Source of the DNA: Liolophura sinensis
Lineage: Eukaryota > Mollusca > Polyplacophora > Chitonida > Chitonidae
Direction: 5' to 3'
DNA: 64,000 bases
Assembly (NCBI RefSeq): GCF_032854445.1
Contig: NC_088295.1
Location: forward strand, 6,202,501 to 6,266,500
Part shown: positions 16,447-46,700 of the stretch, in pieces
How the letters are laid out: the number at the start of each line of letters is the position of its first letter
Numbering within the stretch: the first letter of the stretch is position 1
The notes under the pieces: generated by a model
The model's database searches: none
Seen by the model: the letters and a program-made list of their open reading frames with translations, nothing else
What the model was told of the DNA's origin: nothing
Translations under genes and position numbers: made by a program

Positions 16447-19400
16447 CTGAAGATGAAAAACAAGATAGTTGTGGAGGTGAGAAACAAGATAATTATGAGG
16501 TGAAAAACAAGATAATTGTGGAGGTAAAAACAAAATAATTATGGAGGTGAAAAACAAGATAATCATGAAGGCGAAAAACAAGATATTTATGAAGGTACAA
16601 AACAAGATAATTATGGAGGTGAAAAACAAGATAATTATGGAGGTGAAAAACAAGATATTTATGGAGGTGAAAAACAACAGTCCACTGGAGTGGAAAACGT
16701 CAGTGTACTTCAGGTGGAAAACAAGATAATTATGGAGGTGGAGTAAAGTATGCTACACAAAATGTGATTCATGACAAGGAAGCTAGACAAATTTGAATCA
16801 GTGATAAGGAGGTTACACAAAATGGGATCAATAATAAGGAAGCAACATAATATGGTTTCAACAAAATGTGCGCTCAACATAATAGGGTCCAGGAAAAACA
16901 CGTTAAATACAAAGCGTTTACATAAAAATACGCCACACATGATGGGGAAATCACAAGGGCGGTATACACGTGGCAAATTCACCGAAAACATTCGATAAAC
17001 AAAATGGTGTCAAAAGACACTCATAACGATCTACACCGTGAGTGCGCTATGCACGGTGAAATAAACTTGACGAAAAGTGGGCTAAATAAAATGAGATTCA
17101 GGAAAAGTATGCAGAAACGTACTTTAAATACAATGGGTTCAAAGAAATGAAAGCTAACCATTATGATATGAAGGGGATAGTGCCGTGTGCATATTGAGAT
17201 TGACGATAGGCGATAACCAATAAGCATCACAACAATATTGAAAATTATGGACAATAATACGTGAGATTAAACAGTACTATATCTCAAAATGAACAGCAGC
17301 TTAACTTAATCTGACGAGGTAGTATAATCCTTCCTTTGTAATAAACAACATGAAACAAAGCTGTTCCTGCCTGTTAGAATACTGAGTCGAGATGTAATAC
17401 CCACTGTTGTTTATCGAGTAACACTACATGGGTCAAATGTACCGCATGGTGTCAAAGCCCGTATTCGGGAGAAACATTAGAATATGTTTGAGAGTCTGGA
17501 GCGCAGATGGATGCTTGTTCGGCTTCCATTGAGACATGGTGATCTGCAGGGCACCTTTACTTTTACAACACAACACCGGAGCTACATTGTTTGTTAGTAT
17601 ATAGGTTTGGATCGCGCTAAAAGTTTGCGCGTGACTAATACGGAATTGTTGTGAGCTTCACAACAGGGTGCGTAGTCATTGGTGCAAATTGTAAGCGTAA
17701 TGACTCTCACTTGGGAACGGTTTGGTTGAAAGCGCTATTTTGTATGTGTTTTAAAGCTATTGCCTTGGTGGCTGGTATCGATTGTTTCAGTGGAAAGTGC
17801 GCTGTTATAACTGAACGAAGCACTCTACAATCTGCTATGAGCGCGTCATCTATAAAGGTGGAGGCTTTAAATAGATAATGTTGTTTTATTGTACGATGGT
17901 CCAGCGCACTGTTGCACCTGGCGGTAAACACCTGACAAGTGTACATGGCTCATTGGAGACGATATTATATCTGGTCTTACTTGTAATTAACAGCGGTTTC
18001 AAAAGGAGCATTTTCAGGCATGACGAATCCATATCCGGCCGTATTGAACACCTCGTTGGCCACGGCAAACTTACAGCCGCTGAGGGCGATGTATTTGAGC
18101 AGGGCAGTGTCGGACATGTATGCGTACCGGCCCGTCTCCACTAACTTCAGGGCGTCCTCCGTCACTGTTGCACGTGGTGAATTTTGAAGCCTCTCCCAAA
18201 CATCCACGTAAATGCCTTTTTTAGAGGTCTGTAATAAACAGACAGGTATTAGGCAACATTTACATGCGTGACACAGCGACATTGTTGTCTTTCTCAAGAT
18301 ATTCCTATAAATGAATACTTAATCCCATAAATAGTACAACATTTATCGTTCTTCAGAAAACGCGATTGTGCAGTATATAATTTGTCCTTCCCGTAATAGG
18401 GAAATGGCTTTTATATGTGTAGGAATTCCATATGGCTTACCTGTCCTGGCCTGTGAGGATTTACCGTGGGGATTTCCGCTGCGTTGAAGATACCATTGCA
18501 CTCAATTATAACTGAGATGTTATCGTTATTGTGACATATAATTATGTGTGATGAAGGAAAAATCATTATTATTCTACTAAACCACGGATTTCTAAATGAC
18601 GCATAGCAATTAATACACAGTTATTACAATTATGGCGTGTCGTCATCCAAGAAAAATTGCTGCACTACATCATTTCATTAATGTGTCCGAGGCCTTTCAA
18701 TAGTGGTGCATCGGATTGGTAAGGTTATTTGCCGCATATACATGTAGTCATCCGGAATAAACATATTTTTCGCCTACTTCCAAACTGAGCTAAAATTGTT
18801 GAAAGCAGGTTGTTAATAATTTGTAGGCATTCCGACAATTCTTCCACGTGGCCAGACAAGAGCAAAACATGTGTTGTTAGTCATGATTTTACACTGGTGT
18901 AGCTGGTCGTTAGATCCACAAGCCTGTTCAGTGCTCCATAACTCAAAGATCGGTCGATACTAGCTTAATAAATTTTCAGCATGGCTTTTAAACAATCTAG
19001 TTTATTCATTTGCATGTTTGTCCTCATAGTTTACACAAAAATCAGTCCTGCTCTCTACATGCAATGAAGTTTGTATGTTTGGGGTTTGGCGTAACTTCCT
19101 GTCACCTAAATTTCTGTCCTCTCCAAGTAGGAATTAAATGCAAAACACTGCCGAGTGTTGCATCGGTGAAACACAATGTCAAAAAAAGAACAGGTTTGTG
19201 CCCTTTTCCAAGTCGTACTCACCGAGAAGATACCTTACAAGTCCGTGCTGTTTTTCACGGCGATACCTAGAAAATATCGGATGCGATCGTGCTGTTTTTA
19301 CAGTGATACTCACCGAGAACGTAACCCACAGGTTCGTGCCGTTTTCACAGTGATACTCACCGAGAACATAACCTACAGGTTCATGTCGATTTACAGTGAT

Positions 19401-22400
19401 ACTCACCGAGAACATAGCCCAATGGTTCGGGCGGTTTTTTACCGTGATACTCACCGAGAACATAGCCCAATGGTTCGGGCCATTTTTACAGTGATACTCA
19501 CCGAGAACATAGCCCACAGGTTCTTGCCGTTTTTACAGTGATACTCACCGAGAACATAGCCCAATGGTTCGGGCCATTTTTACAGTGATACTCACCGAGA
19601 ACATAGCCCACAGGTTCGTGCCGTTTTTACAGTGATACTCACCGAGAACATAGCCCAATGGTTCGTGCCGTTTTTACAGTGATACTCACCGAGAACATAG
19701 CCCACAGGTTCGTGCCGTTTTTACAGTGACACTCACCGAGAACATAGCCCAATGGTTCGGGCCGTTTTTACAGTGATACTCACCGAGAACATAGCCCACA
19801 GGTTCGTGCTGTTTTTACAGTGACCAGTGACACTCACCGAGAACATAGCCCAATGGTTCGGGCCGTTTTTACAGTGATACTCACCGAGAACATAGCCCAC
19901 AGGTTAGTGCCGTTTTTCACGACAGGCTGAACCTCTTTCTGGGCCAGCAGTTCTCCTAGACTGTTGATCGGGGTATAGGGCATGGAGACTGTGAGGAAGG
20001 CAGCTAGGTTCGCCGTGTAAGTCGCCACCACCACGATGGTGAAGATCCAGAAGAAACCAAGAACAACTCGGCCTGACGTGGCGTTGGGATGATAGGTAGC
20101 CCCTAAAATTAAATCACGCAGGTACTTATTGTACACCTTAACAGTTTATACCCCCCCCCCCCAGTGGTCTCAGCCACTTTTCAGCACTAGAATCTGTGCT
20201 ATATTCAGAAAGTGTAATCCCTATTAACGATAATACTGTAGATGACCAACAGTAACGATAATACTCTAGATAATACTGACCTTGTTCCATGGCCGAGCTG
20301 TAGATGAGCCAGAGGTTTTCGCTGAAGCTGATTTCATCCGTGGTGGAGTCAGCCATACCCTGTCGGATACCGCTGTAGGGTGTGTGGTAATTCACCAGGA
20401 AGGAAATAACACCCACTAGGAATGTAGCCCCTGCTATCGCTCCCCACACCTCCCCAGAATACGGCTTAAACATCTGGAAGAGCTGCGAATCTTCGTCCTG
20501 GGGTTTTCTGGTAAGAATACCTGTGCTGTCCTCTAGGTAGGGTTTGGTGAAATCTATGACACTCTCTCGGATGGAGGTGATGGTGAAAGGGCCGACGGCA
20601 AGGTCTACTTCCTGAAAAACAACGTGACGATATCCTCTACATGTATACGACAATAACAACAGTAATTAACAGCCGCGGTGGAAACACGGCTACCATACCT
20701 TAGCTTCAAAGGCTACCTTTAACAAAAAGCAAAATTACAAAAAAAAAAAAAAAATTTTTAGGTATACATACTCCACGTTTCACCATGCCCACCATGCCAT
20801 TCCAAGAACCATCCGGGTTGGGGGCCCCATACAAGCGGTCTGGAGGCTCCACTATGACGTACCTGGCACATAAAACAGACAATGCATTTACATTATCATA
20901 CATGTAATGGCAAACTTATACGTTCCGGGCAAAGACTGGGCACATTGTCAGGTTCAGCCCCCTAACTTTCTTTACCGATTTGCCTGATATCCAGGACCAG
21001 AATTCTCCAAAGCAGTTGCAAAGTTTATTGTGTCCTCTTGAAGATTTTAATTTCATCCCTTTTTTGTAATTTTTTTTTACCAAATAACCTGAAATATACA
21101 GCAGTTTAGTTGACGCCCACATTATTGTGGTGTAAATCAGTCACATCCAGGGACTAATTTCGCAAACAACAACCACTGAGTTAAATACCAATATAACAAA
21201 TAACCCGTAGTCGACTTAGAGCTTGAAGATCATTAGATAATCTTTTATTATTATTCTTGTAGAGTGTTTTGTCACACTTTTGAGAGATTACCTGAATTTT
21301 AACCTAGAAGCCAGCTCGTTGAGAATGTCAAAAGCGAATCCCGTAAATACCGTTTTGTTATTCTTCTTCACCGGCAGACAGAATGGCTTGGACTGTAAAT
21401 CAAAACATGAAGTCACTGAAATCCCGGGTTGTCTGTTGTATGCTCTAATGTTCACTTAGTGTACACTCACGTACGTCTTTAACACACAAAGCCCGACATT
21501 CAAGGCGGCGTCTATTATTTTGTTTACATAGTTTCACCTAGGAAATGAATCGTATAGATAAAAACGCAAAAGCTTCTCTTTAATATGTTACAAAACATTC
21601 CGTTAGGCATTCACTACTCCAGCCTGTAACAACCAGTACAGTAGTGTATCACATTCAGAAAAAGTAGTGTGAATACGACAGGATTTCAGTTTCACCTCCA
21701 GAGTTGCAATTGTCAAAACACGGCCACCAAAGTCGTAAAACTTGTTCAGGAAGAGCTTTTCATCATCAGATGTGGACAGACCGTTCTGAGAATCCCACGA
21801 GGCTACAAGCTGGTACGGGGATTTGCTGGAATTGTACAAGCTGAATAGTTCATAGTTGATCTTGATGAGAAATCCCTGCGGTGTGAAACCGTGGCACGTA
21901 GTAAACCCCGGACTGTTTTCCTGTGAGAATGATACCAACATCTGTGATATCACGGATGGCAAAGAGATTGTGAACGGCTTACTTATAAGTTATTATATAA
22001 CTAACTGGTTTTACTCCCCGGCGGTAGGCTACGTGGAAAGCCTGGAAGCAACTGTGCGGATGGTCGTGGCTTTCCTCCAGGCTGTGCCCTGTTTACTCCC
22101 ACTATAATGCTGGCCGCCGTCGTGTAAGTGAAATATTCTTGGATGTGAGGTAAAACAGCAATCAAATAAATAAATAAATAATTTTTTATTTCTGACCTGT
22201 ACGATTTCTTTCTGCTGTCGCGTTTTTTCTCAGTTTAGCAAAAGTTATGAATTATAATCCACTGAATGATAACAAGAAAAACGTCTGGAAGTCCATGTGT
22301 GGAAAAAAGTCATGCGATTCAGCAAGAGCTTACTTTAAAGATAGCCTCCATGACTAAGTCAGCTCCAGGAATGGTGTGATTGGTCGTCATCAGACAACTG

Positions 22401-25400
22401 GTGCCGGTCGGTTTGTTTGGTTCAGGTCCACGCACTCCCAGTGAGGCTTGAAATAATAAGGAAATAGCGTCTACTAGGGTGGCCTGAAATAACTGGAATA
22501 TGAGAGGGAAACTTTTATTTATTTGTTTACTTATTTGGTGTTCGTCGTTCTCAAGAACATTTAACTTAAACGACGGAGGCCATCATTATAAAGACATGTT
22601 TACTCTTACGACCAGACTTACTGGCAACCTTTATATGAAGCAGTGGCAAAATGCATCTGGCATAACTTCCATGACCACATGCAATGAAAAGAAAGGCCAG
22701 CATGGTAAATGTGTTGTGTAGAATGGGCCCGTGGTGTTTAACATCCACACCGAAATGTTTCCATCCTAAACATATACATGTATACGGATATGTGTGAACA
22801 GACTTACAGTTATGCACTCAGACAAAATTACTACCAAACTGAACATACCTCCGTTTATAGTCCGATCTATACTGATAATCTAAATTGACATCCTCACATG
22901 AACTTACAGAATTATTAACAGGGTAAACAAACATACTGACATGGACTGACACAACTAATTACAAAATGAACAGACATACTGGCATGGACTGACAGAACTA
23001 ATTACAAAGTGAAAGGACATACTGACATGGATTGACAGAACTAATTACAAAGTGAACAGACATACTGACATGGACTGACAGAACCACTTACAGGGTAAAC
23101 AGACATACTGACATGGGCTGACAGAAATATCTACAGGGTAAACAGACATACTGACATGGGCTGACAGAAATACTTAGAAGGTAAACAGACATACTGGCAT
23201 GGACTGACATAACTAATTACAGGGTAAACAGACGTAGTGACATGGACTGACAGAACTACTTACAAAGTGAACAGATATACTGACATGGGCTGACTGAACT
23301 AATTACAAAGTAAACAGACATACTAACATGGACTGACAGAACTAATTACAAGCTAATCACACAGACTGACATGAACTGAGAAATTTATTCACAAAGTGAA
23401 CAGACATACTGACATGGACTGACAGAATTACTTACAAAGTGAACAGACAGAATCACTGACAATCTGAGCGGATATACAGAAATATCAACAGACAAAACTC
23501 CTGACAGACCTACCGACATGTAGGGACAGAACTGGGTACAGGAGGTTTCCTGCAGACAGTGAAGCAGCTGACAATGACCATCTGTACTTCGTCGACTTCC
23601 GCTCCAGGCTGGCCGAACCAGCATCACGTTGCTGTCCACGTACGGACGTAAGATCGAGGCGGCGTCCTCCGGTATCAGGTCGTCTATCAGGAGGATCCAG
23701 AAGTACGAGGGGGCAAGCAAACCTAAGCGGTGACTCTGCAATTATCAATGATCATTCACTTCATACATACCGTGGGTGTAAAATCGCTCCCTATATCGCG
23801 CCTAACTGACCCAATTTCTCTCACTAGGTTCGACATTTTCTTACTACATCTGTTATAGTTTTCACACTTGCCAGTATGTACAAGTCAACCTGTGTAAAAT
23901 GTTGTCATCGTGTGTATGTTCACCTGTAACAAGTCAGACATCGTGTGAATGTTTACCTGTAACAAGTCAGATATCGTTTGAATGTTTACCTGTAACAAGT
24001 CAGATATAGTGTGAATGTTTACCTGTAACAAGTCAGATATCGTGTGAATGTTTACCTAAAATAAATCTACCACCGTGTGTATGCTTACCTGTGACAGTAC
24101 TTCCCTCAAGTTACTGGACTTGACTCTCACGATGATGGCCTCATGGTCTACCCCGACGAGCCGAGATAAGCCCGTCATTTGCGTCTCCGAGGCAGTGGTC
24201 TCCAAAAGAACGATGGACGACTCGACCATACTAGCGGATAGCGATAGCACCAGGGTTTTACGTTGAACAGAATCTAAGACAAGGGAAACCCAGAACGGAC
24301 TTTGTAGAGGCCCCAGATGTGCTAAGTCATGTTGGTATTTATTCTTTAATTGTATATATATGCAAAAGAATAATTAATATATCCAGTTCTTGGTAAGATA
24401 TGTTTATACATGAATATTTATTATACAAATTCCAATACATATGTGCAATTTTTGAAGGCATCTTGAATTTTGTATTTTGTATATATGCGTAAATGTAAAT
24501 TCACCTCAAAAATGCACAAAATATTAGCACATATCTATGTTATCCAAGAGGTAAGATACATGAAAAACAATTGTCATTTAATGTAATTTTGCTTGATTGA
24601 CTGATTACGAAAAAAGTTTGTAGGTGTTTAATTTGGTAAACCTGATATTCTGATTTAGAAGGAAGTTCGAATTTTGTACATTCGAAGGGACATTTACCGA
24701 CGGAATCGTCGAGGATAAGACCTGCACTGTGCCAGCTCATGCTGCTCATCACGTCTGTCACGAGGCTGGCCAGTACCGAGCTGTTGACGCCTGCCTGGAG
24801 GGAGTACTGACCGGATGTCCGGGTGTCACATGACTCTGTGTTGATGCTGACATGTGGTAAGCGGAAGACGTCTGCCTGGGACAAAATGTATTGACGTGGT
24901 CTGCACGGGAGAGCGGTGACTAGTCCCTGTATCCCACTGTCTATCAAATCACACACTGTGGACAAGAAATGTGTATTTATTTATTTGGGCTTAACGCCGT
25001 ACTTAAGATTCTTTATCCTACGACTGTAATCGGGTTGTTGAATAAGGACACACGAGTGCCTAGTGTAAATCACCGTCTCCGCCTCTAACCTTAGACACCC
25101 CCTGACTTAAAGCCGCGATCGATCATGCTCGATTCAAGCTTATAACTGCGATAATCCGGGGATGATCGGCTGTGAGATGAATAAGAATTTTGCCTTTTGA
25201 TATACCGAAGGCTGCTGCACAAATAATTGTCAAGCCTTTAATCCACACACATACACGTGATGTTCAACGCCTATATCAAATCGATGTCCAATTGAAAAAA
25301 GAAAAGAGTGACGTTTCATCTTCAAAGGAACTCTTTAAAAGACAGGAAATGCGTCAGAGACAACGTAATTGGCTTACATCGTCATCAGAATGAGTGTACA

Positions 25401-27911
25401 CAACTGACACAAAGGAGTCTGCCAGCTATGAATATCCAATTAGGGCGGCACTTGGGTCAATATTCGCCCAGTCATATAACCGTTATGGATTATCTCAGGT
25501 TTATGTGTTATTTGATGATTCTGTTGATTGCATCTGAGGTGGGAAGGCTTTTGCTAGACAGTTTATATTTACACGCACAAAACCCTTTTCTTAAGAAACT
25601 GACCAACCTTCTTCCAAAGCAAACATTGTGTTGCTGCTATTCAGTGGTCGCCATAGTAACTGTAAATCTTGGTTGGCTTCCCCCTCGCCACTGGTGAGGA
25701 AATCTGGGGGATGACTAAGTACGGCTCTTTTGATGGTCCATTCGTCTATTTGATCCGCGATTCCCCCATCGTATATGACACCTGCATAGTCAACAAACAG
25801 CACGGACTTCAGCTCGACAGTCTTCCCTTATAAGGCTTACCTCGAGAACTAACTGGACTACCTCCCTGACGGCTTTAATTTCATTTGGGGGAAATCGAAC
25901 CACGTGTAAAGAATTCATAAGGGAACAGAACAAAGGTGTTAACGGTACGTGACGTGGATTTATTCTTTCCCGGTTATCAGGATCCTCCTTATCGCACAAC
26001 TCTCCTTACTTTCGTTTCATGCCGATCTCAAAAACCACATGATTAAACTCTCTTTGAATGAATCTATATCAAGGATATGACTAAAAAACCAAAACGTCTA
26101 CGAATATTTAGAGCTTTAGCCATGTTTGAGAGAGATGCCGATGCTTGTGACTGTGAGACTTTTGGAAGGATGGAGGAAAGATATGAGGATGGACCCGCTT
26201 GCTTAATACGTCAGGCGTGCCTCAGGGAGTGCATTTTGTCAATAATACGGGAAATTAAATATTAAAGATATATCACAAAAACTTAATCATATTAAATTAT
26301 TAATAACTGGGAAGCATTTGCCAGTGAGTAACCTTTAGTTCGTTCCCTATGTAACAGTTAGACTTGAGGAATATCTTCATCGAACATGTGTTCAGTTTGT
26401 TTTAATAATTCGGCGAAGTCTATTTATTTATTTTTTTTTTGATTGGTGTTCTACGCCCTACTCAAGAATATTTCACTTATACGAAGGTGGCCAGCATTAT
26501 GGTTGGAGGAAACCAGGCAGAGCTCGGGGGAAACCCCTCTCTATTTGGTGACATAAACACTTTGTGGTAACAACACGAATTTGTGCGATTTCTGGAGTTG
26601 TGAGATATCGCTGAAGCAGAATAACGGACAATGGAATCATGAATTCTACCCCCCCCCCCTTCCACACGCGCGCACTACCCCCATCTAGTAGTGACTAGTC
26701 TCGTTTCGTCTTTCGTTCAGTATCTTCATTGTGTAACGTGATATGGAAACAATAACGTATTAGGTTTTGATCGAATAAGAAACAACATACATAGTATCTT
26801 TTAGGACGAAACAAGTGTCATCAGAACCCTCCGCCAGGCAATACGACAGTAACTGACAGTCACATTCATACATTACAGCTGCTATGCCATTTTGTGTGTG
26901 TGTGTGCTTTTTTAACAATAAATATGAATGCCTTAACCCAGGAAGATATTTATTTTGACAACCGAACTAAAAGGCTGCTGATTTCAAAAATACTTGAAAT
27001 AATAAATTTTATCAAGTTTTGTATTTGTGAAAATAAAAAAAAAACACAATAACTGATATTCAAATGATATTTTTTGCCTAATTTTTAACACTTTAATTTC
27101 TTTTTCTTGGTCCAAGTGCATACTTTATTGGTTATAGTTATTGGTTATAGATTTTTCTGAGTGATCAATGAATCTTAAAACGTTAAAAAAAATTCAAAGC
27201 TTTGGAAGCTCCGATATTTTTTTTACTTTATTTGCAAATTATTGTAATCAACAATTGTCCCGCGTCCAGTCAAATTGAGGGTAGGCCAACTTATTTACAC
27301 AAAATTGTAATGCTTCATGAAAGCTTAAAATTGTATTTTATCTTGACAGTCCCCAACAAAACTTACTAAATTAAATCGATAAAACCATCCTCAGGTGGCA
27401 CTCGGTGTTGTTTTTGTTGATGTGTATATAAGGTCAACAAGGCCCGTATGGGCAGGCAATTGCCCATCATTGAGTTAGTCACAATAATCATTGAAAATCA
27501 AGAAAACACTGCCGTAGTTCACAAGTTATAGGTTTTGTGTAATTTGTATTTGGTCTTCATCTTAAAAATCAAACTGTGAAATAAAAAAATGTTAAAATTG
27601 CACCGGTTTATAGGTATCCACGTGTCCACGGATCCTCATACAGGAGAAATAACCATTTACCCTAAAATCTTCCATGTACCATAAAAACCTTGTAAGACTG
27701 GTGAACATTCATCGTGATCAGGAGTAATCCTAGTTTGTAAAAACGCCATTTGCTTATAATTCTACCCATAACAAGGTATTGAGTTCAATGGCCTACTCAG
27801 CGCTGAATCCACAACTTACCGATTTTGATAGCTTGTCCCGAGACGAGGTACACACAAAGACACGTGATGATGGTGAATCCCATTGGCCCAGAATCTGCTA
27901 TCACAACAGGC
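16152..27911 (-). CDS. Gene B: complete non-NMDA ionotropic glutamate receptor (13 coding exons)
   Basis: Ligand-gated cation channel subunit of the plasma membrane. Coding exons are 27820-27883, 25608-25781, 24698-24955, 24089-24273, 23514-23735, 22334-22483, 21696-21920, 21292-21392, 20772-20862, 20281-20611, 19885-20102, 17981-18228 and 16152-16446. Every junction is GT-AG, phases agree throughout, and the sum is 2562 nt, giving 853 residues, normal for the family. Order: signal peptide (1-18), amino-terminal domain (about 20-410), S1 (about 425-540) with PFTITSIRESVIDF, whose Arg binds the ligand carboxylate in known receptors, M1, pore loop AMEQG, M3 with [12 protein letters not shown]2 with AYMSDTALL, and M4 before a short tail. 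An AMPA/kainate/delta-like (AKDF) placement is likely, but the subfamily is unresolved. Oddities are Glu at the Q/R site and junction-derived arrays in introns 4, 5, 11 and 12. Confidence 0.95.
16447..16740 (-). repeat. 24-bp minisatellite abutting the exon 13 acceptor (gene B intron 12)
   Basis: About 11 units; on the coding strand the unit is CTTGTTTTTCACCTCCATAA then TTAT. The true acceptor reads CTTGTTTTTCATCTTCAG followed by TATAATGA, so the unit looks like a copy of the pyrimidine tract and splice site in which the AG has been lost. The array touches the splice site with no spacer. Confidence 0.88.
16741..17980 (-). other. Remainder of gene B intron 12
   Basis: Unique AT-rich intron. 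Its beginning (16760-17150) has loosely repeated ACAAAATG and AAATACA words that may be decayed array. No exon was recognised; frames at 17.65-17.95 kb match no family I know. Confidence 0.5.
17981..18228 (-). CDS. Gene B exon 12: S2 ligand-binding half
   Basis: Acceptor TTATTACAG, donor AA then GTAAGA, phase 0 to 2. It encodes 82 residues from TSKKGIYVDVWERL through GRYAYMSDTALLKYIALSGC to NTAGYGFVMPENAPFETAV. The Asp of YMSDTALL sits where AMPA receptors have the ligand-contacting Glu; NMDA and delta subunits also have Asp there. Confidence 0.95.
18229..19195 (-). other. Downstream part of gene B intron 11, unique
   Basis: Intronic sequence between the splice-donor array and exon 12. I see no exon or mobile element in it. 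Confidence 0.5.
19200..19884 (-). repeat. 47-bp array of exon 11 end plus splice donor (gene B intron 11)
   Basis: About 14 tandem units directly downstream of the real exon 11 donor, spaced about 47-48 bases. On the coding strand each unit carries GGCACGAACCTGTGGGCTAT, then GTTCTCG and GTGAGTATCACTG, that is about 32 nt of exon end and 15 nt of intron including the GTGAGT donor. Two unit types alternate over most of the array: one like the exon (ACCTGTGGG), one with ACCATTGGG. The leftmost copies are decayed. Confidence 0.95.
19885..20102 (-). CDS. Gene B exon 11: M3 gate and start of S2
   Basis: Acceptor AATTTTAG, phase 1 in, phase 0 out at TTCTCG then GTGAGT. It encodes ATYHPNATSGRVVLGFFW, the M3 helix with the gating motif [12 protein letters not shown] (Ala-Thr in place of the usual Ser-Ser before Tyr), then TPINSLGELLAQ and PVVKNGTNLWAMFS. 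The last 11 codons or so are the seed of the intron 11 array. Confidence 0.95.
20281..20611 (-). CDS. Gene B exon 10: end of S1, M1, pore loop
   Basis: 331 nt, acceptor TTTTTCAG, donor CAAG then GTCAGT, phase 0 to 1. It encodes EVDLAVGPFTITSIRESV, FTKPYLEDSTGILTRKP, the M1 helix (VWGAIAGATFLVGVISFLV) and the pore helix ending LWLIYSSAMEQ. The carboxylate-binding Arg is present. By alignment with the usual MQQG, the Q/R site is Glu. Gene C exon 11 is the homologue and would have exactly this length if intact. Confidence 0.95.
20772..20862 (-). CDS. Gene B exon 9: S1 middle
   Basis: 91 nt, acceptor ATGTGCCAG, donor GGA then GTATGT, phase 2 to 0. It encodes YVIVEPPDRLYGAPNPDGSW then NGMVGMVKRG, the S1 segment before the ligand-binding helix. 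A C-run at 20152-20162 and an A-run at 20739 lie in the flanking introns. Confidence 0.93.
21292..21392 (-). CDS. Gene B exon 8: S1 start
   Basis: 101 nt, acceptor GATTTACAG, donor TTCAG then GTAATC, phase 0 to 2. It encodes SKPFCLPVKKNN and VFTGFAFDILNELASRLKFR, the classic GFAFDILNELA element of the S1 ligand-binding lobe. Too short to appear as an open frame of its own. Confidence 0.95.
21696..21920 (-). CDS. Gene B exon 7: end of amino-terminal domain into S1
   Basis: 225 nt, acceptor TTCTCACAG, donor GAG then GTGAAA, phase 0 both sides. It encodes the last strands of the amino-terminal domain (TPQGFLIKINYELFSLYN) and the linker ending RVLTIATLE, the first strand of S1. Confidence 0.93.
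21985..22185 (+). mobile_element. SINE copy in gene B intron 6
   Basis: Contains CTGTGCCCTGTTTACTCCCA, CTATAATGCTGGCCGCCGTC, GTGAAATATTCTTGG and a run of AAATAAATAAAT. Plus orientation, so antisense to gene B. The tRNA head is missing. Confidence 0.88.
22334..22483 (-). CDS. Gene B exon 6: amino-terminal domain
   Basis: 150 nt, acceptor TTATTTCAG, donor AAA then GTAAGC, phase 0 both sides. It encodes ATLVDAISLLFQASLGVR and SCLMTTNHTIPGADLVMEAI. This matches the helix that in other receptors reads 'yDAV..la' before the membrane-proximal end of the domain. Confidence 0.92.
22510..22590 (-). mobile_element. SINE 3'-end fragment in gene B intron 5
   Basis: TTTATTTATTTGTTTACTTA followed by TCTCAAGAACATTTAACTTA and GACGGAGGCCATCATTAT on plus. 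This is the body and tail of the window's SINE family in minus orientation. Confidence 0.7.
22870..23460 (-). repeat. 43-bp array derived from the exon 5 donor region (gene B intron 5)
   Basis: About 13 units of CAGACATACTGACATGGACT then GACAGAACTAATTACAAAGT on plus. On the coding strand the unit includes CATGTCAGTATGTCTGTTCA, which aligns with the exon 5 end plus donor, CATGTCGGTAGGTCTGTCAG. Many units also read TTTGTAAGTAA, a consensus-like donor. The array begins about 55 bases inside the intron. Confidence 0.85.
23514..23735 (-). CDS. Gene B exon 5: amino-terminal domain
   Basis: 222 nt, acceptor AATTGCAG, donor ATGTCG then GTAGGT, phase 0 both sides. It encodes SHRLGLLAPSYFWILLIDDL, then VDSNVMLVRPAWSG and a Cys-containing end. 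The YFWILLIDDL strand fits the 'hyhyiitdld' strand of the domain's second lobe. Confidence 0.92.
23890..24088 (-). repeat. 33-bp array of GT...AG units at the exon 4 donor (gene B intron 4)
   Basis: Intron 4 opens directly with about six units. The first is GTAAGCATACACACGGTGGT ending TTTTAG; later ones are GTAAACATTCACACGATATC ending TTACAG. Unit boundaries fall at 24088, 24055, 24022, 23989, 23956, 23923 and about 23889. Each boundary except the first repeat boundary (TTTTAG) reads ACAG then GTAAAC or GTGAAC, so it scores as both acceptor and donor. Confidence 0.95.
24089..24273 (-). CDS. Gene B exon 4: amino-terminal domain
   Basis: 185 nt, acceptor TTGTCTTAG, donor ACAG then GTAAGC, phase 1 to 0. 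It encodes SVQRKTLVLSLSASM, then GVDHEAIIVRVKSSNLREVL, the 'ivv.c' strand and following helix of the second lobe. Confidence 0.93.
24698..24955 (-). CDS. Gene B exon 3: amino-terminal domain
   Basis: 258 nt, acceptor TTGTCCACAG, donor GTCG then GTAAAT, phase 1 both sides. It encodes CDLIDSGIQGLVTALPCRPR, VFRLPHVSINTESCDTR, then MSWHSAGLILDD. The C-D-L-I-x-x-G-I opening and the YSLQ...WHSAGLILDD strand are typical of iGluR amino-terminal domains. Gene C breaks at the same LILDD point with the same phase. Confidence 0.95.
24965..25020 (-). mobile_element. SINE 3'-end fragment in gene B intron 2
   Basis: TATTTATTTATTTGGGCTTA then ACGCCGTACTTAAGATTCTT: the tail and last body segment of the SINE family in minus orientation, immediately upstream of exon 3's acceptor tract. 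Confidence 0.75.
25608..25781 (-). CDS. Gene B exon 2: start of amino-terminal domain
   Basis: 174 nt, acceptor GACTATGCAG, donor GAAG then GTTGGT (a weak donor), phase 1 both sides. It completes IKIGVIYDGGIADQIDEW across the junction with exon 1, the first strand of the domain, and ends NSSNTMFALEE, with an N-glycosylation sequon NSS. Confidence 0.92.
25782..26414 (-). other. Part of gene B intron 1, unique
   Basis: No exon recognised. Frames here (60-70 codons on both strands) have no splice support. Confidence 0.45.
26415..26535 (-). mobile_element. SINE fragment in gene B intron 1
   Basis: On plus: TTTGATTGGTGTTCTACGCC, CTACTCAAGAATATTTCACT, GCCAGCATTATGGTTGGAGG, GCTCGGGGGAAACCC. Body and tail of the SINE family in minus orientation, with the tRNA head cut off. 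Confidence 0.88.
26536..27819 (-). other. Rest of gene B intron 1
   Basis: AT-rich, with a C-run at 26650-26660 and a short GT microsatellite near 26893. No exon recognised. Confidence 0.5.
27820..27911 (-). CDS. Gene B exon 1: 5' UTR end, start codon and signal peptide
   Basis: ATG at 27881-27883 opens MGFTIITCLCVYLVSGQA, a good cleavable signal peptide, then IKI, with donor ATCG then GTAAGT in phase 1. I chose this ATG over an upstream in-frame one because the signal peptide begins here and an acceptor (GTTGCTAG) at 27912 would leave 28 nt of leader in this exon. That implies at least one untranslated upstream exon. Coding part is 27820-27883. Confidence 0.9.
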
Positions 27912-34799: not shown

Positions 34800-35100
34800 T
34801 ATATATCTTTATTTATTTGTTGGATTGTTGTTTAACGCCACACTGACTTATACAACAGCCAGCAGTTAATATACCACCGACAAGGTACTGACGTGCTTCT
34901 CCACATACTTGTATGATTTAGTGCAGTTTTGGTGGAAAACAAGTGGTCTTCAACGAACGTAACATTGCGCAAACTGACACACGAGAGCTTTGGATAGCTC
35001 AATGTCGCCAAGGCCCCAATAAGGAAAGCAGGAGAACTTATAAAATCCCTGCCCGAGGGCCGGAGTTAAACTCGCATATCTTGAGGACTAAAACGCAAGT
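34800..35100 (-). mobile_element. SINE-like element, second subtype
   Basis: On plus it begins TTTATTTATTTGTTGGATTG then TTGTTTAACGCCACACTGAC, which resembles the tail and 3' body of the main SINE, but the interior (ACCGACAAGGTACTGACGTG, GAAAGCAGGAGAACTTATAA) differs. Probably a related family sharing the 3' end; limits are approximate. Confidence 0.6.
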
Positions 35101-37429
35101 GTATTCTAAAATGAGTTAAACATTTGAAATATTTCTTTTGATTTTCTTGCGTCTCTGTGGTATTGGTGCTGGCAAGTACGTAAATGCTACGGGTGCCATT
35201 TCTCCGCTATTTGCTACCAAACTAAAGCGCCGGTTTGTCTGTAATTGGGATTAATCCCAGTCGCGGACCTAACTTATTGCTGGCCTGCATAAGAATGAAA
35301 AGACCATCACAGAATACTACAGGTTTGAAAAAATTGTATTTTTTTTCTGAACCAAAAAAACAAAAGAAGTGAACATTTCTACTCCAGAAATCGAATCTAA
35401 TTATCATTCTTAAAATCTATTAGTAAATGTCAGAAAAATGGAGTAACAAGATCAAACTGTGCAGTGATCTTCACAGTCCATCATTTGCTAGAGGTTGTTG
35501 CTTGAACCACAAGAATCACAAACTCAATAAGTTCACCGGTCCCCATCGTCTCCATGACGACCCCTGCACTTTTCGGCACCTTGAAGGTTTCCCAATCTCT
35601 AAAAGTGCTTCTGTATCGCTGTAGTGTGCTAAGGGTACAAACTGGGATATCTGCTCATTAATGATGGGCTAATTACCGCCGAAGCTGGTTAGTACAAACA
35701 TGGTTAAAAACACGTGAATAGAAATGATTCTCTACTTGTTAATGACAACACGAGTTCTTGACATGGGAGGACCAGCAAAACACACGCAAGCGTTGGTCAC
35801 CAGATGTATGCTATTGCCGTTCTCTTGATACAAGATTGTATCTTAATACCGTTATTTATGAAAAAAAAACAAGCAAAAAAACAAAAAAAACAAAACAAAA
35901 AAAAGAACACATTCATAAAAATCACCATAATTTCGGTCGATTTGATATATTAATATATGTATTAGAGACAAAACTGTGATTAGCCAAGAAAAGCTTCCAT
36001 TAGCCCAAGCAAACTGCTTGCAAAATTTTCAAAGCATTTTGAGCACAAGCAAAAACAATCTGCTCTAAAATGACTTTTCTCTACATTATCAAATTATTGA
36101 AATATTCAAACTTAAAAAATAAGATAGGTACGTTGAGCTCATGTAGCTCTCAAAAAACTTATATGTTAAATTTAACAAATTCTGTTGTCTGAATGAAGCC
36201 AGACTGTATTCTGTTAATAACTGCCACTGCAGCAAATTATTCTGTTATATACAGCACACACATTGTATTACTTCAACATAAAGACTGCATTAGACTAACA
36301 GTATATTACGTTGAATATGACACTAGATTATGCTATAATATCAGAAAACATTTTATTATCACCCAGGCTTAGATTGTCTGTTACAATTAACAGATTATTT
36401 TATTATGAGTGGCTTGAAAAGATTGTGGTTTTGAGGCCGTAACTTTTAATCAATAGAGTTCCTCTAAAATCGTCTAACCCTCAAAAGTGTTCAAAAGGTT
36501 ACACAAAAGAAGAAAAGTTGCAATGGCTTATACCGACACGAGTCAGTCATATATGTGTCAAGGCCATATACATTATACATGTTACGACCCAATCTTTAAA
36601 AGCAATATATTTCAATCAGCAGACTACTTAGATCTGGGCATCGCTAAATGCATCACATATAGTGTCGTCAAACCCGACTATCCCCCCCCCCACCAAAATC
36701 TATTCCATTAGAGACTAAAAGGAATGACAATTATTACATTTTTGTTCCTCTATGGTCAGCTAATTACCTGATAATCTCTTTACACACTACATTAATGCTA
36801 CTTTAATACAGCATAATATGCTACAAATATCACTGTACACATTTAACCTTGAAAGACTGGATATAATCATGGGTCGACACCAACATACGGGGCTGAATCA
36901 CACAGATGTGCTAACACCATATTCTGACAGTAAACAATGCTGACATTGTTTTATATATGCACATAAATATTTAAACACAAATTATGTATAAATCACCAGA
37001 TTGTCAACAACTTTCATGTCTAATTTCTGTTTAACGCCGATCCTTTGTATAGTGTATGGTGCACATGTTCTGTCTCCGACTGCCTCATACCAGGGCTTCC
37101 TTCTGTGCAATGACCCCAGGTCTGACGTCCTCGCGGCAGGTTGGGGTGATGTTAACCGCAAAGGTCACGCGTCAGAGGCGAGAGGATAACGTACTGCTGG
37201 ATCCTTCACACTTGCTTAAGTGCTCTGGGAATGAGTCTTGCCTCTTCACGTCTTTCACTGAGTCATTCTGTTACATGTATAAAATAAGCCTTATGGTTTC
37301 TCATTTAAATGAAACGTGTTTTAAAAAAATATTCCCACGAATAACTCAGATTAAATATTTGTCGTTGCTAAGTTTGTCTTGCTGAAACATTAAGCGCCGT
37401 ATGGTAATGACTTATGGATTAAATGATTG
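35101..37429. other. No gene recognised
   Basis: Intergenic DNA with an A-rich low-complexity stretch at 35862-35910 and a C-run at 36682-36690. The 109-codon plus frame at 37056 has no recognisable domain. Confidence 0.45.
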
Positions 37430-37475
37430 GAGTGTAACAACATACTTAAGAATATTTCACTAAGACCATGATGGT
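37430..37475 (-). mobile_element. SINE 3' fragment
   Basis: TGTAACAACATACTTAAGAA then TATTTCACTAAGACCATGAT on plus, a decayed remnant of the SINE body just downstream of the gene C stop codon. Confidence 0.5.
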
Positions 37476-37491
37476 CAGATTTAAGAGTGGA

Positions 37492-37771
37492 TCACGCCGG
37501 AGTACCCGGAGTGGACCGCCGACCTTTGGCCATTGTCAAACATGAGAATTTACAAACCTTTCTTCGTTGCGCGAATCTATTGACGGAGAGTTCCACTATC
37601 AGCACAAGGATGGAGAATACAGTGCCAGCCGCCATGACAATGAAGATGCCTGCCACAGTTTGGAACGTCAGTCCATCATTTTCGTCGTTTGTTGGACAGT
37701 TTCGATTGGTAGTGTTCCACCAACGTTCCTTTAAGTCGTCCAATTTTCTCTCTTGCTGCAGCTCCAAAATC
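37492..37771 (-). CDS. IR25a: Gene C exon 13: end of S2, M4, tail, stop
   Basis: Acceptor CATCTACAG, phase 2, as in genes B and D. It encodes ILELQQERKLDDLKERWW, a Cys-containing loop, the M4 helix (VAGIFIVMAAGTVFSILVL) with the GIFIV start typical of IR25a, and a short basic tail. Frame intact. Confidence 0.93.
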
Positions 37772-40700
37772 CTGTAGATGACAGCAGGGGATTTCATTGC
37801 ATTTTAGAGGTAAAAATCTTGCCGGTGTAAATATGAGATTATTCATGCTGTCATTTTATTTCATTCTAATGTAAAAGTAGTAGTTTTGTTACTTTCAGGG
37901 CTCATTAGAGAACATGTAACTAATGCTAGATAGCACAGCCATGAGTGCATGTTTGTACATGCAACTGGGTTGTCTGACAATGAAAATGGCGAGGATTGAA
38001 GCCGAGAAATAGAAAATCCGTCAGCAGGTATGATTTTTTCCGTGTTTTCATAATTGTTTGCCCAAGTCACAGGTAACTATGAATATAACAACAGACATAT
38101 AGACAGCCTTATAAATGCAACTGACCTACTAGATATCTTCTTTGTGTGGGCTGAGTTTTCCCTGAGAGCAAAGGCATAAGGTTTTGTACTAAACTGTCCA
38201 CCAATCACCTCTAGGTTACAAGTGCTAGACATCTCGAATTTTATCATCGGCGAGTCATGAAAGAAGGCGAATTTTTCCGTCTTCACTTTCTCCATGCCCT
38301 GTCTGGAGCTATTTAAAAAGCCATTGTTCTCCATCTGTTTCCATATATTCTGGTACTTGTCACCCAAGGGATAGTCCCAGACGGCGAAATTCTTTTCCTT
38401 TCAGAGAAGAACTCGGTATATCTCCGTAGCTCATGTCCTTCCACAAAGAGTAGAAATTCTTCTCTATCTCGGCCATCCTGCGGAAGTATGTCTGTACAGT
38501 GGAGCCCTCCATGGCCGAGTATTTGATTTCGGACTGGGCCGCCAGGTCATCCAGGGACTCCACCGGGTCAGTCAACCTGGACAGGGTGAGATGGGCCGCC
38601 AGGTTCGCTGTGTACGTGGACATCATGATGCTACAGAAGAACCAGAAGCCGGCGACCAGCACCCGCGTCGAGATGGGCCTTGGGGTTCCTTCTGAACTGA
38701 AATAACACAAGGGTAATTATATAATTGTTGGCTGTTTCGACTAAGCCAGGATGTTACTTGTTCTCTATCAAATGTCGTGTTGGCATACAAGTAAGGGGTA
38801 GTGCATATTCGATTGGACTAGGACGTGCACAGCGAACACCAGGCGTTTGACAAATTAACACTGAAAATTAAATGTATTATTCATGTAGTACATTGTCTTT
38901 GGTAAGTGTCTTTGGAACTTCAGAAAGAGTTAATGTACCTTTTTATAAATGGTTTTTGTCCTCGTCAAATTCCAAAATGTTGGATTTAACATGATTAAAA
39001 TTATGCATAACCGTTCAGTTCTAACAGTATATCGTTTGGTTAAATTCGATTCGTATGGGAAGTGAACTGACGCGGGCCAACTTTGATCTGCGACAGGGTA
39101 ATTATACCAACACGTAAACGTCTGCTCAGACCCTAAACTATGGTTGTTGTCTTCGTGAGGCTTGGGACCAAGTCTAGTTTTGCCGCGTAAAAAGTCACGG
39201 GCTTAAAAGAAGAGGAGACAGAACAAGTAGGACAATGTGGGATGAAGCCCGGAGAGGAAATGGTAACTGTACCTGACATGGTAAATGATGTAATGACAAA
39301 CCACCAGCACTCCTTGAAGTTGTACACCGTGCCGTGCACAGAGTCGGTCGCGGAGTTGCGAGTGCTGAACGGACTGTAACGTTCAAAGATGAAGATGAGG
39401 ATAGCTGTAGTGCACAGAACTACGGCCCAGCAAATCCACACATCCTTATCAAACACATCCGAGAAGGCAAACATGTTTGGGGTGTTGGTAGTTTTCTCTC
39501 ATAACAATTTGTATCCCGGCAAGTCGTAGTATGGTGTCGTGAAATCCACACTGATTCTCGCTCTGCCGTGACCGAGATCGGGCTATAGCAATGTCTGCCG
39601 TCTGAAAATTAGAATTAAGATAAAACGAAAACCTGAAAGCATAAATATGGGCTTCACAAACACAACTGTCGAGATAGTCCATCTCTGAAGAGGCTAATAT
39701 GCTCTTGAAACCCGTGAATCGGATCCCGACAAGACCATTACAACCCCTTATCCCATTATACGCAATACTCTTTTTCCTTTCAAACACCCAATTCACCTGA
39801 TCACAACCTTTTTCGTCGAATTAGTGTTAAAAAGGTAGTGGATCGAAATTTTTTGATCCACTACCCAATGCACCAAACCCTTTCCAATACCTTACACATT
39901 ATTCTAAATTGTACTTAAACGCAGAACTGTGTTTACTTTCTTTACAAGCTTATCAATCATTTATTACGTTTACTTTATCGCAATTTTATAAACATTCTCT
40001 TCTATTGCATAAAGTCTACCAGATGTCAGTTAAACCATTTTATACTTGTGCCCGTGTACAAACTCCACCATTAAACCATCCCAGTACCCCGTGTATACCT
40101 GGCCCATTTCTACATTCTTTTATTCTAATCATACATGTGTGCGATAGACACAGCCTGACCACAATAGGCGACGTGTACCTGACGCCTTCTTTTTTCACTT
40201 TGCTTAATTATCAACTGGAAACAAAAATATTAGTTCTGCAGCGTTAACTGTTTTTACACAGCCACATATATAATTACTTGCAGGAAAGCTGTGTCTATTG
40301 GGCCCTCCATGGTTAGACATGCATATTCTTTTATATGTTTGCCTCTTTCCCTTTTTCTCTAAATTCGCTTTAAGTATACTAATATGAAAACGTTACACAT
40401 GTACCATATGATGTTTGGTACATGTTTCCTTTGGTACACAGTTTCTCCAGTATATATGTATCAAATAAGGGGATGCCTCACTTGGCCATGATGTTTAAAA
40501 AGCGTGTTGATATCATTTAGTACCGGCACACTACCCTACAGTGTGATAACGGAGTATTCAATGTTGTGACGTCAGTTCTCTCTTAGAATCGATAAGATTC
40601 CATAAACTAACCTTGTTTTACCATATCCGTGAACAGATCATTTTATAACTTAATCTTGTTTGCTACATCCTTGATCGGACCATTCTATACCTTGACCTTG

Positions 40701-43700
40701 TTTAGCAGCTCCCTGAACAGATCATTCAATACCCAGGTCTTGTTTACCAGTTCCCTAAGAGACAATTCCATACCTTGACTTTGTTTACCAGCTCCGTGAA
40801 CAGATCATTCCAAACCAAAGCCTGTTTATCAGCTCCTCTAACAGATCATTCCATACCTAAACCTTCTTTACCAGCTCCATAAGAGGCCATTCCATACCCA
40901 CACCTTGTTTACCAGCTCCCTGAGCAGATCATTCCATACCCACATCTTGTTTACCAGCTTCGTGAGCAGATCATTCCATACCCATACCTTGTTTACCAGC
41001 TCCCTGAGCAGATCATTCCATACCCACACCTTGTTTACCAGCTCCCTGAGCAGATCATTCCATACCCACACCTTGTTTACCAGCTCCCTGAGCAGATCAT
41101 TCCATACCAACACCTTGTTTACCAGCTTCGTGAACAGAGGATTCCATACCCACATCTTGTTCACCAGCTCCGTGAGCAGATCATTCCATACCCACACCTT
41201 GTTTACCAGCTCCCTGAGCAGATCATTCCATACCCACACCTTGTTTACCAGCTTCGTGAACAGAGGATTCCATACCCACATCTTGTTCACCAGCTCCCTG
41301 AGCAGATCATTCCATACCCACATCTTGTTTACCAGCTCCCTGAGCAGATCATTCCATACCCACACCTTGTTTACCAGCTTCGTGAACAGAGGATTCCATA
41401 CCCACATCTTGTTCACCAGCTCCCTGAGCAGATCATTCCATACCCACATCTTGTTTACCAGCTCCCTGAGCAGATCATTCCATACCCACATCTTGTTTAC
41501 CAGCTTCGTAAAAGAGGATTCCATACCCACATCTTGTTCACCAGCTCCCTGAGCAGATCATTCCATACCCACATCTTGTTTACCAGCTCCCTGAGCAGAT
41601 CATTCCATACCCACACCTTGTTTACCATCCTCCGTGAAGAGTGGATTCCACACGATAACCTGTTTTACCAGTTCCGTAAACAGATCATTCCCATACCCTA
41701 ACTTTGTTTACCATCTCCGTGACCAGAGGATTTCATACCCTAACCTTGTTTACCAGCTCCCTTAACAGATAATTCCATACCCTAACCTTCTTTACCAGCT
41801 CTGTGAACAGAGGACTCCCTACCCACCCCTTGTTTTTCCCTTAACAGATCATTCCATACCCACAACTTGTTTACCAGCTTCGTGAACAGAGGACTCCATA
41901 TCCACACCTTGTTGACCAGCTTCGTGAACAGAGGACTCCATACCCACACCTTGTTCACCAGCTCTTATAATAGATCATTCCATATCCACACCTTGTTCAC
42001 CAGCTCCCTTAACAGATAATTCCATACCCACACCTTGTTCACCAGCTCCCTTAACAGATAATTCCATACCCACACCTTGTTGACCAGCTTCGTGAACAGA
42101 GGACTCCATACCCACACCTTGTTCACCAGCTCTTATAACAGATCATTCCATATCCACACCTTGTTCACCAGCTCCCATAACAGATCATTCCATATCCACA
42201 CCTTGTTCACCAGCTCCCTTAACAGATAATTCCATACCCACAACTTGTTTACCAGCTTCGTGAACAGAGGACTCCATACCCACACCTTGTTCACCAGCTC
42301 CCATAACAGATCATTCCATATCCACACCTTGTTAACCAGCTCCCTTAACAGATCATTCCATATCCACACTTTGTTCACCAGCTCCCTTAACAGATCATTC
42401 CATATCCACACCTTGTTCACCAGCTCCCTTAACAGATCATTCCATACCCACAACTTGTTTACTAGCTTCGAGAACAGATCATTCCATACCCACAACTTGT
42501 TTACTAGCTTCGAGAACAGATCATTCCATACCCACCCCTTGTTTAACAGCTCCTTGAATAGATGATTCCATACCTTAATCTTGTTAACCAGCTCCCTTAA
42601 CAGCTAATTCCAAACAAAAACCTTTTTTCACTACCCCTATGAAGAAACCATCTCCGCACCATAACCTTGTTTTCCAGCTCCCTGAAGAGACCATTCCATA
42701 TTCATGTCACCTGGAACACCAAAGCTTGATCTTACAGCTTTAAATACAGATCACATCAGCCTATTAAACAGAATATAACTGTCACGTATAACTGGCACCA
42801 GATTAATAAAGAGATCCTACCTTCTCCCACACCTTTTGCACCAGACTTAGGAGTAAATCATACCTTACTCTAACTTCCACATCCATGGATACATTATACC
42901 CTCCTAATACCTGATTTATGAGTAGACCATACCTTACCCTAAGCCGTCAACCAGATCCATGGATATATTATACCGTCCCCATACCGTGTGCACCAGGCTT
43001 ATGAGTAGACCATACCTTACCCTAAACCGTGAACCAGATCCATGGATACATTATACTGTCCTCATACCGTGTGCACAAGATTTATGAGTAGATCATACCT
43101 TACCCTAAACCGTGAACCAGATCTTTGGATATATTATACCGTCCTCAAACCGTGTGCACCAGATTTATGAGTAGAACATACTATGTCTATGAAGATAAGG
43201 CGTCATCCTGATCCATGAATACATTATACCGTCCTCATACCGTGTGCACCAGGCTTATGAGTAGACCATACCTTACCCTAAACCGTGAACCAGATCTATG
43301 GATACATTATACTGTCCTCATACCGTGTGCACCAGGCTTATGAGTAGACCATACCTTACCAGTATATACATTATACTGTCCCCATACCGTGTGCACCAGA
43401 TTTATCAGTAGATCATACCGTACCCTAAGCCGTGAACCAGTTCCATTATACAATTACATTATACTGTCTTCATTCCGTGTGCACCAGACTTAATGGTAGA
43501 TCCTACCTTACCCTAAGCCGTTAACCCGATCCCTGGATACATGATACTGTCACCATACCGTTTGCACAAGATTTATGAGTAGATTATACCTTACCCTAAG
43601 CCGTGAACCCGATCCATGTATATGTATTACCGTTCCTCTGCCGTGTGCACCAGATTTATGAATAAACCCCCACCTTCCCTCAAACCATGAGGTGCGGCTA

Positions 43701-46700
43701 CAGGCAACTGTAGGGTCGGATATATACTTGGAGAGTGGGTATGTTTTACGGATATTTTATATATACATACACTATGTTTGTTATTTCCTCAAGCGCAGCG
43801 AACTGTGAGTGTGAAATCTTGGATCAGGCTTGTTTATTCTTACCCCGTGCACGAGTTCCCCAATCAAACCATTCCATTCACCGTTGGGTAAAAGCGTCCC
43901 GTAAGTTTTGTCCTCCGCCTCGTATATGTCATATTCTTCTCCGGATAACTTCATTATCTCTCTTAATACATCTATGGCGTATCCTTCATATGTCATACTT
44001 CCATTTGGCGCTTCATTCTTTATAACAAAAGGTGGCTCCTGCAGAGTAAAAGTTAGGGAATTTACAATATGTTTAAATCTGAATATTTATTTGAGTGGTA
44101 TGCTATTCAGGATGTTTCCCTTATGGCAGAAGCCAAAAAAGCCATCTAAACTCGCCAGGTACGTGACAAAACTCCAAACTTAAAGCATATGCCAAGTCTG
44201 ACCAGAGGTGAATTCATAGCCTACAATCTAACGAGCGAATGTTTAACGATGGTGATAATCGCAACTACCAAAGCCATGTGTTCTGCGTTTACCTGAAATT
44301 CATAAAAAGCAGAAGTTCAGTTGTCTGCTCGGTAGTAATTAGGGACATTATGTTTCAGTATCTACTCAGACCTTACGTGAAATGTGGCCACCCGCAATCT
44401 GTAGGGTTTGGTTTCTCCCATGTGACTGTCGCTGTACCAGTCCAAATTCCCGTCTAACCATTTACCAATCTGAAGAAGAGCAAAAATACAGTATATGTAT
44501 ACATGCCTATATGAATACGTCATTTACCAATCTGAAGAAGAGTGAAAATACAGCATATGTATACATGCCTATATGAATACGTCATTTACCAATCTGAAGA
44601 AGAGTGAAAATACAGTATATGTATACATGCCTATATGAATACGTCATTTACCAATCTGAAGAAGAGTGAAAATACAGTATATGTATACATGCCTATATGA
44701 ATACGTCATTTACCAATCTGAAGAAGAGTGAAAATACAGAACTATTTATTCAACCATAAATGTACAGATCAAAACGAATTCAACCCTATCCGACATCACG
44801 CGATGCACTGTATCGGATAATACCTTCTGGCGATGTGAATTAGGCTCCCTGTCTAACTTACCAGGGAGCTGTTAGTTTCATTTCTGTTACAGGAAACCTC
44901 CAAAACATCCAGCTGAACTTTGTGTGAAATGTTTACCCCATCGTAAACCACTTGACCTGACGCCGTTTTCGTCTGTGAACAGAAAAATAGGAGCTGATGT
45001 AAAACAATATTAAAGTCGCTTGCTGACTGGACGAAGCATATCGGAGAAAGCGGTTCATGAAGTTTGCGAAGCGTTATTTAATCGGCGTTGTCTTTATGAT
45101 GGTAACAAATACTCTAACGTTTAATCTGGGGAAGGATATGGGGAAAGTGGAGTTGTCTCTACTCGTCTTTGACTTCGTCGTTCGTCTTTTCTATCTGTGC
45201 CCATGAGTTATCATAAACATAAAATTCTCCTTATTTCTGTACGATTACACTGATATTCGTAACCAACAGCCAATGGCAAACTATTATCATGCGTTCAAAA
45301 GAGCGGACAACGCTAGAGGAAATGTATATATGTATTGCTAAACTTTCTCATATAAAGTTTAAAAAGCATATCTTTTTATTTCTGCGACGTTACATGGCCA
45401 AAATATCACAGTTAAAAGTAATACAGGTAATATCACCCACATCAAGAGAATCGAAAGCGGCGCAATATTAATAATTTTAACCAATCACGCACGAATTATT
45501 TACATAACCCGGAACGCCTCTATTACTGCTGAAGTCACCCGAACTCTGCTTTTAGTCACACTTTCGTAGGGCAGCATGACATCATGCTTTCAGATTCTCT
45601 AATATGGAGTATTGTGACCATATTGTCACCTACAACATCGTTATTTCCTTAACAAAACTCTCTCAAATGCCAAGATTCCCCTTCACAAAGTCACAACATG
45701 GTCACAGTATCCCATGAAACCATGAGAATTCCAGACTAAAAGTTTCTTTATTGAGCTACCAGGAAAAATGTCGGAAGAAATAAATGTTTTTCTCTTGATT
45801 ATTGTTGTCTTTTCTCGAAACGTATAGAACATCCATTAATTTCTACTCACGTATGTCTGGCTTGCTTTTCAGAATTAATGGTCAGAGACAATTTATTATC
45901 GAGATGCTTATGTTTAGAGCAGACCTGGATCTGGCCGTGGAGTATCGAGCCATTTTGTGTCGCCTTCCATACGTCTATCACCGTACTCAGACTGTCCCAC
46001 AACTCATATACCTGTCTCTGTAAAAACATCATGACATGCATAATATTAGGACAGAGTATCTTTATAGATAACAATTTACATGGTGCAATATCGATTTTCT
46101 GCTACCAAAGCCAGGATATGTCACAGTATATTATGTATACTTGTATATAGCGTGATATTCTGCTCTGTATCACAAAAACATGCCCCGGGTAAACGAATAC
46201 AGACAAGCGCTGTAAGATAAGGGCAGTTCATAACTACCAACGTAGCAGCAGTATATGGAAGGGACAGGGATTATTGGATTTATTATTGCTAACAAGTGAC
46301 CCATTGTCTTACCTGCTGACTAACAGGGGCTTACCTTTGTGAGGTTATCCCGTACCTCTCGGGGAAGAGTGTCATATAAGCTGGTATTGAGCCAGACCCA
46401 TGGTAACCTGATGTAAACGATAGAATCCAGTTGACAGGGAGGACAGGTTGGCTGGACCCAGTCTGTTGTTATTACTACCCAGTAGACAGACGCCATTAAG
46501 GTTTTCAAACTGCACGCCTATGTAAACAACAGCAGCATGAAATCAATTATGAAACAGGAGGACTGGTAACACTGTATTAGAACCTCATCAAAGTGTAAAC
46601 CTAGTACTTTTTTAAGTATAGCTGTGGTGATATTAACGCAGGGGGAAAAATTTAAGTAAATTTAAAGAGAGTATACCGCGGAGATTTGTGCAAACATCCA

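Follow-up and report, generated by a model that had tools for sequence, protein, structure and literature searches.

Minisatellite-like tandem duplications of exon/intron borders, known as mirages, have been described in amphioxus. The first of these was reported for Adh3 (Canestro et al. 2002 NAR 30:2871), and later cases include the globins BflGb6/BflGb9 (PMC3087553), TnC (troponin C), and PGBD5 (PMC3902484). Duplication can affect 5' as well as 3' borders, the units measure 10-72 and about 150 bp, and many copies retain AG/GT. Each mirage was described at its own gene. Regular splicing is kept, as reported from RT-PCR, and somatic or haplotype instability of array length is known. Tandem duplication inside a gene of DNA that bears a splice site also underlies the Rogers model of intron gain, in which AGGT proto-splice sites are duplicated (potato RdRp, PMC4974935; Drosophila, PMC2891723).

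The window analyzed herein, a stretch of 64,000 nucleotides, is part of scaffold_1 of the chiton Liolophura sinensis, whose genome was first published under the name Liolophura japonica, later corrected to L. sinensis. The 609-Mb assembly consists of 632 contigs, and the contig containing the window has 96,433,062 bases. The window lies in a tandem cluster comprising about 13 genes for ionotropic glutamate receptors (iGluRs); Lig_chan exons follow one another there at intervals of about 20 kb between 6.07 and 6.31 Mb of the same contig. Exon-by-exon tblastn demonstrated that the exon structure of these paralogues is conserved. Exons 3-13 of gene B form a single open frame over all 10 introns, and thus the junctions of this gene are securely placed. 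Within the 244-kb cluster, about 19% of the DNA is minisatellite; in the loci encoding myosin that were sampled elsewhere, the share is 12%. All arrays proposed in the earlier note were recovered by TRF at the positions it gave. The arrays and exons concerned are listed below in window coordinates.

24089..24273, minus strand: gene B exon 4 (iGluR amino-terminal domain), donor CTGTCACAG/GTAAGC at 24089/24088, in the continuous frame of exons 3-13
23906..24096, minus strand: B4 33-bp minisatellite in 5.8 copies, extending across the exon 4 donor with an overlap of 8 nt; its unit, TGTTACAGGTAAACATTCACACGAT..., copies the junction (TRF, unit-junction alignment)
22887..23449, minus strand: B5 43-bp minisatellite in 13 copies, lying downstream of the exon 5 donor (23514/23513) at a distance of 64 bp
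19885..20102, minus strand: gene B exon 11 (pore/TM3 region), donor at 19885/19884, in the continuous frame of exons 3-13
19287..19917, minus strand: B11 47-bp minisatellite, about 13 copies (TRF, alignment, copy count)
16152..16446, minus strand: gene B exon 13 (TM4 and C-terminus), acceptor CATCTTCAG/TATAATG, in the continuous frame of exons 3-13
16454..16677, minus strand: B13 (intron 12) 24-bp minisatellite in 9.4 copies, immediately preceding the exon 13 acceptor
44377..44469, minus strand: gene C exon 8, acceptor GCTCTTCTTCAG/ATTGGTAAATGG
44459..44739, minus strand: C8 62-bp minisatellite, 4.5 copies at 98% (TRF, alignment)
42916..43661, minus strand: gene C long intron (intron 10), 83/86-bp minisatellite, 182 bp from the donor, junction origin unsupported (P=0.11)
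40610..42700, minus strand: gene C intron 10, 42-bp minisatellite in about 50 copies, starting 1143 bp from the donor; derivation from the junction unsupported (P=0.08)

The relation of the arrays to the exon edge varies: B4, B11, and C8 enter the exon, B13 ends 7 bp short of it, and B5 begins 64 bp off. The B11 unit combines the last 30 nt of exon 11 with the first 17 nt of intron 11, and the C8 unit combines about 51 nt of the intron 3' end with the first 11 nt of exon 8. The B5 unit holds CATGTCAGTATGTCTGT, which resembles the exon 5 junction CATGTCG/GTAGGTCTGT. The B13 unit resembles the polypyrimidine/acceptor sequence.

Extra splice sites inside these introns, as anticipated in the earlier note, were found for most arrays. 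Donor-like copies number 5 in B4, 12 in B5, and 12 in B11. The donor at the exon edge is the strongest one in B4 and B5; in B11 all copies are equal, so that the array contains 12 extra GTGAGT donors matching the working site in strength. C8 contributes four extra exact acceptor copies, each followed by IGK-stop. The expected pyrimidine-AG sites of gene B intron 12 are absent: the array copies carry no AG, reading CCA where the acceptor reads CAG, and 238 nt ahead of the true exon 13 acceptor are AG-free. This tract was rejected as strong evidence of selection, since the opposite strand holds seven AG-free stretches longer than 200 nt and a unit of 24 bp may be devoid of AG by chance. Among the donor copies examined in B4, B5, and B11, 27 of 29 would bring a premature stop if used, and therefore the open frame requires the edge copy. 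As judged from the sequence, an open frame running through the edge copies is consistent with undisturbed regular splicing.

Several other features of the window were recorded. The later exons of gene C (38126-39601) carry several single-base frameshifts, of which about four fall within 120 bp near 39500-39600 and another lies near 38370; the surrounding protein is well conserved, and the frameshifts reflect either a pseudogene or low-coverage assembly errors. The 3' end of gene C exon 9 recurs as a lone diverged copy (about 70% over 43 nt, minus strand, approximately 40049-40100) deep in the following intron, distant from the arrays. Gene B intron 6 contains a SINE-like element on the minus strand (22000-22200, CGACGGCGGCCAGCATTATAGTGGGAG...), which we take to be of a kind found in molluscs. 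On the 3' side of gene B, a 33-bp array of about 49 copies (14173-15806) keeps several frames open over 100-300 codons, probably only because its period is a multiple of 3. An 80-bp array at 55712-56612 (11 copies, 96% matches) is among the most homogeneous long arrays of the window.

Each repeat unit was aligned to a 60-nt junction window. Controls were random non-array windows of genes B and C, shuffled units, and the remaining same-type junctions of the cluster (85 donors or 100 acceptors). The earlier note had considered six arrays alignable to their own junction and had proposed alignment against shuffled controls; five of the six beat the controls, the own junction scoring above random windows, other cluster junctions, and shuffles. 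The scores were 32 for the B4 donor with the 33-bp unit (random maximum 25, P<0.001), 35 for the B5 donor with the 43-bp unit (P=0.002), 104 for the B11 donor with the 47-bp unit (random maximum 50), 38 for the B13 acceptor with the 24-bp unit (P=0.001), and 72 for the C8 acceptor with the 62-bp unit (random maximum 28). Against its donor junction, gene C intron 10 did no better than random windows with either the 83/86-bp units (P=0.11) or the 42-bp units (P=0.08), and it was rejected as a junction-seeded array.

Comparison with the described systems places these arrays next to the amphioxus mirages. The chiton units likewise span the exon/intron border of the host gene (B4, B11, C8, and the exon-9/10/11 donors of paralogues), and both borders are duplicated, with eight donor arrays and two acceptor arrays. 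The units are also locus-unique, as seen for the 47-bp unit genome-wide and for the five cases against other junctions. The chiton set differs in belonging to a mollusc and to a tandem receptor cluster, in being quantified over 187 junctions, and in showing an excess of donors. By their sequence, the chiton arrays are mirages in anatomy, occurring at a measurable frequency and fairly commonly in this genome. The amphioxus mirages match the pattern exactly, which overturns the view that it was undescribed; the novelty lies in the phylum, the frequency, and the numerical test. No earlier report of mirages in molluscs was found in a literature search that had most subscription papers outside its reach. 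Ordinary intronic minisatellites (VNTRs) share the period of 24-106 bp and the diverged copies, and most arrays of the cluster are of this kind; the junction units differ in including coding sequence and the sequence of a working splice site. Unlike in the Rogers model, duplication here occurs at the edge of an existing intron and lengthens it, with no new intron. Intron gain was rejected, as the paralogues without an array share the same intron positions.

In total, about 11 of the 187 annotated junctions are duplicated into their own intron. A close copy in the own intron was found for about 6% of 40-nt windows centred on these junctions, for 0.4% of windows placed 45-80 nt inside exons, and for 19-26% of windows deep in introns. 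Junctions are thus not simple hot spots, being repeated less per base than mid-intron DNA. For a test per array, a seed of length u was taken to land on one or the other junction with probability 2(u-1)/(R+2u), R being the part of the intron outside the array. The test covered 26 arrays in 75 complete introns, with arrays assigned to junctions by the author from alignments. Ten of the 26 arrays are derived from junctions versus 3.47 expected under uniform seeding (P ~5e-4). The excess that the earlier note had supposed is therefore present per array, but it is limited to donors (8 versus 1.73 expected) and does not extend to acceptors (2 versus 1.7). With two of three exon-9 donor arrays of possible common ancestry removed, 8 arrays remain versus 2.8 expected (P=0.002). 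Outside the window, apart from the genes that prompted the hypothesis, the counts are 5 versus 2.2 (P=0.05).

Junction arrays recur in paralogues outside the window. At the exon-9 donor, one paralogue carries 18 near-identical copies of a 64-bp unit that includes about 14 nt of exon (...TTTACAGAGGG/gtaagg), two others have an 82-bp unit in 5 copies and a 56-bp unit, and a fourth paralogue has degenerate copies. Another paralogue has a 52-bp unit at the exon-11 donor. The exon-9/10/11 donor arrays of the paralogues enter the exon, and most paralogues have no array at the equivalent junction. The origin of the arrays as independent events agrees with the differences between units of different introns, but several paralogues have exon-9 donor arrays with sequence in common. 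Three of these arrays share intronic sequence and may, on this ground, descend from one ancestral array.

A sample unrelated to the receptors, 30 myosin-exon loci from elsewhere in the genome, contained donor mirages at two loci: L025 on contig C12 (donor junction TGTGTGATCATCAG/GTATGTG) and L033 on contig C11 (donor junction GGCAACAT/GTGAGTAT). Additionally, genome-wide triples of splice-site words, i.e., three occurrences at 20-49 bp spacing, were compared with those of the reversed word. The donor word AGGTRAGT forms 1697 triples versus 906 for its reverse (singles, 51157 versus 48053), a 1.76-fold excess once corrected for word frequency. The acceptor word TTTYCAGR forms 1505 versus 460 triples (singles, 164,395 versus 84,950), with a corrected ratio of 1.69. 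Per 1000 sites, triples number 33 for the donor word and 19 for its reverse, and 9 for the acceptor word and 5 for its reverse. These counts are clumped and dominated by large arrays, as visible in the strand counts of donor triples (709 versus 988), and both ratios of about 1.7 are suggestive only. The acceptor excess was judged weak, given strand counts of 917 versus 588, and of 308 versus 152 in the control. In the first 7 Mb of the scaffold of the window, which represents about 1% of the genome, 100 of the 1697 donor-word triples were found; this density suggests that minisatellites are enriched toward the chromosome end.

Chance alone could place some arrays at exon edges in a region full of minisatellites and short introns, with no preference for junctions. 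The share of the cluster taken by arrays, the repeat density climbing from junctions into introns, and the lack of an acceptor excess all agree with such an origin. So does simple proximity: nine arrays of the cluster lie within 60 bp of a junction versus 5.4 expected, a count that was rejected as proof of seeding. Against chance stand the junction-derived arrays, above all the donor ones, the donor mirages in unrelated myosin genes, and the frequency-corrected excess of donor-word triples. Chance is a possible explanation, though not a favored one. The donor excess could also mean that donors are real birth sites of minisatellites, seeded at about four times the uniform rate, with transcription, splicing, or the donor sequence itself promoting tandem duplication, which is doubtful. 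That donors are true mutational hot spots, through R-loops, U1-bound nascent RNA, or GT-rich slippage, is unlikely: the excess is confined to donors, and no other word tested was as prone to form arrays as the donor-like ones, but the acceptor word has a similar ratio to its own reverse, the word counts are clumped, and the same picture would arise if donor copies were tolerated by selection.

A function of the copies, either as a series of alternative splice sites or as a repeat that regulates splicing and so tunes the receptors, is very improbable. The B11 copies do match the working donor in strength, and the gene B intron 12 array does form an AG-free tract ahead of the acceptor; but nearly all donor copies of B4, B5, and B11 lead to a premature stop, those of C8 to IGK-stop, unit lengths are mostly not multiples of 3, and the array is absent from the same junction in most paralogues. 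The number of junctions affected might likewise recall a mobile or introner-like repeat inserting at splice junctions, an origin that is scarcely credible. Every unit carries the junction sequence of its own gene, distinct from the other units, and in the five confirmed cases other junctions of the cluster score below the own one. The 47-bp unit of B11, the sole unit searched genome-wide, has no other match at E<=0.001, in line with the assertion of the earlier note that the arrays are not one spreading repeat. On this search and the junction alignments, an introner or transposable element, with the same unit at many unrelated loci, was rejected.

The arrays are, with good probability, mirage-type minisatellites, in which a border-spanning duplication expanded on the intron side and the edge copy was kept under selection. 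The likeliest account is slippage or unequal exchange of the ordinary sort, acting in a region rich in minisatellites, with the duplications retained because the exon-proximal copy still works. A short tandem duplication, arising by replication slippage or unequal exchange, would span the exon/intron border and then expand on the intron side. The exon-edge copy would be under selection and stay the working splice site, and the inner copies would leave with the intron on splicing and drift, leaving the coding sequence unharmed. The anatomy, the per-array excess over uniform seeding, the recurrence in paralogues and unrelated genes, and the high minisatellite density were observed directly; the duplication mechanism and the use of the exon-proximal site are inferred. 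With 19% of the cluster and 12% of the myosin loci in minisatellites, seeds are plentiful. The donor excess would reflect tolerance or a mild slippage propensity of GT-rich donors. Under tolerance, additional donors farther downstream could be ignored, and an additional AG ahead of an acceptor would be encountered before it. The acceptor copies that bear AG belong to gene C, with its frameshifted later exons, and those of gene B intron 12 carry none; these two cases are consistent with harm from an upstream AG.

Mirages have so far been known from a handful of amphioxus genes and were thought to be perhaps a cephalochordate trait. Their presence at about 6% of the junctions of the chiton cluster and in unrelated myosin genes suggests that they are a general by-product of minisatellite-rich genomes. 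Mirages offer a natural series of identical competing donors in one intron, and hence a test bed for site choice by the spliceosome, as well as for a possible contribution of these duplications to intron gain.
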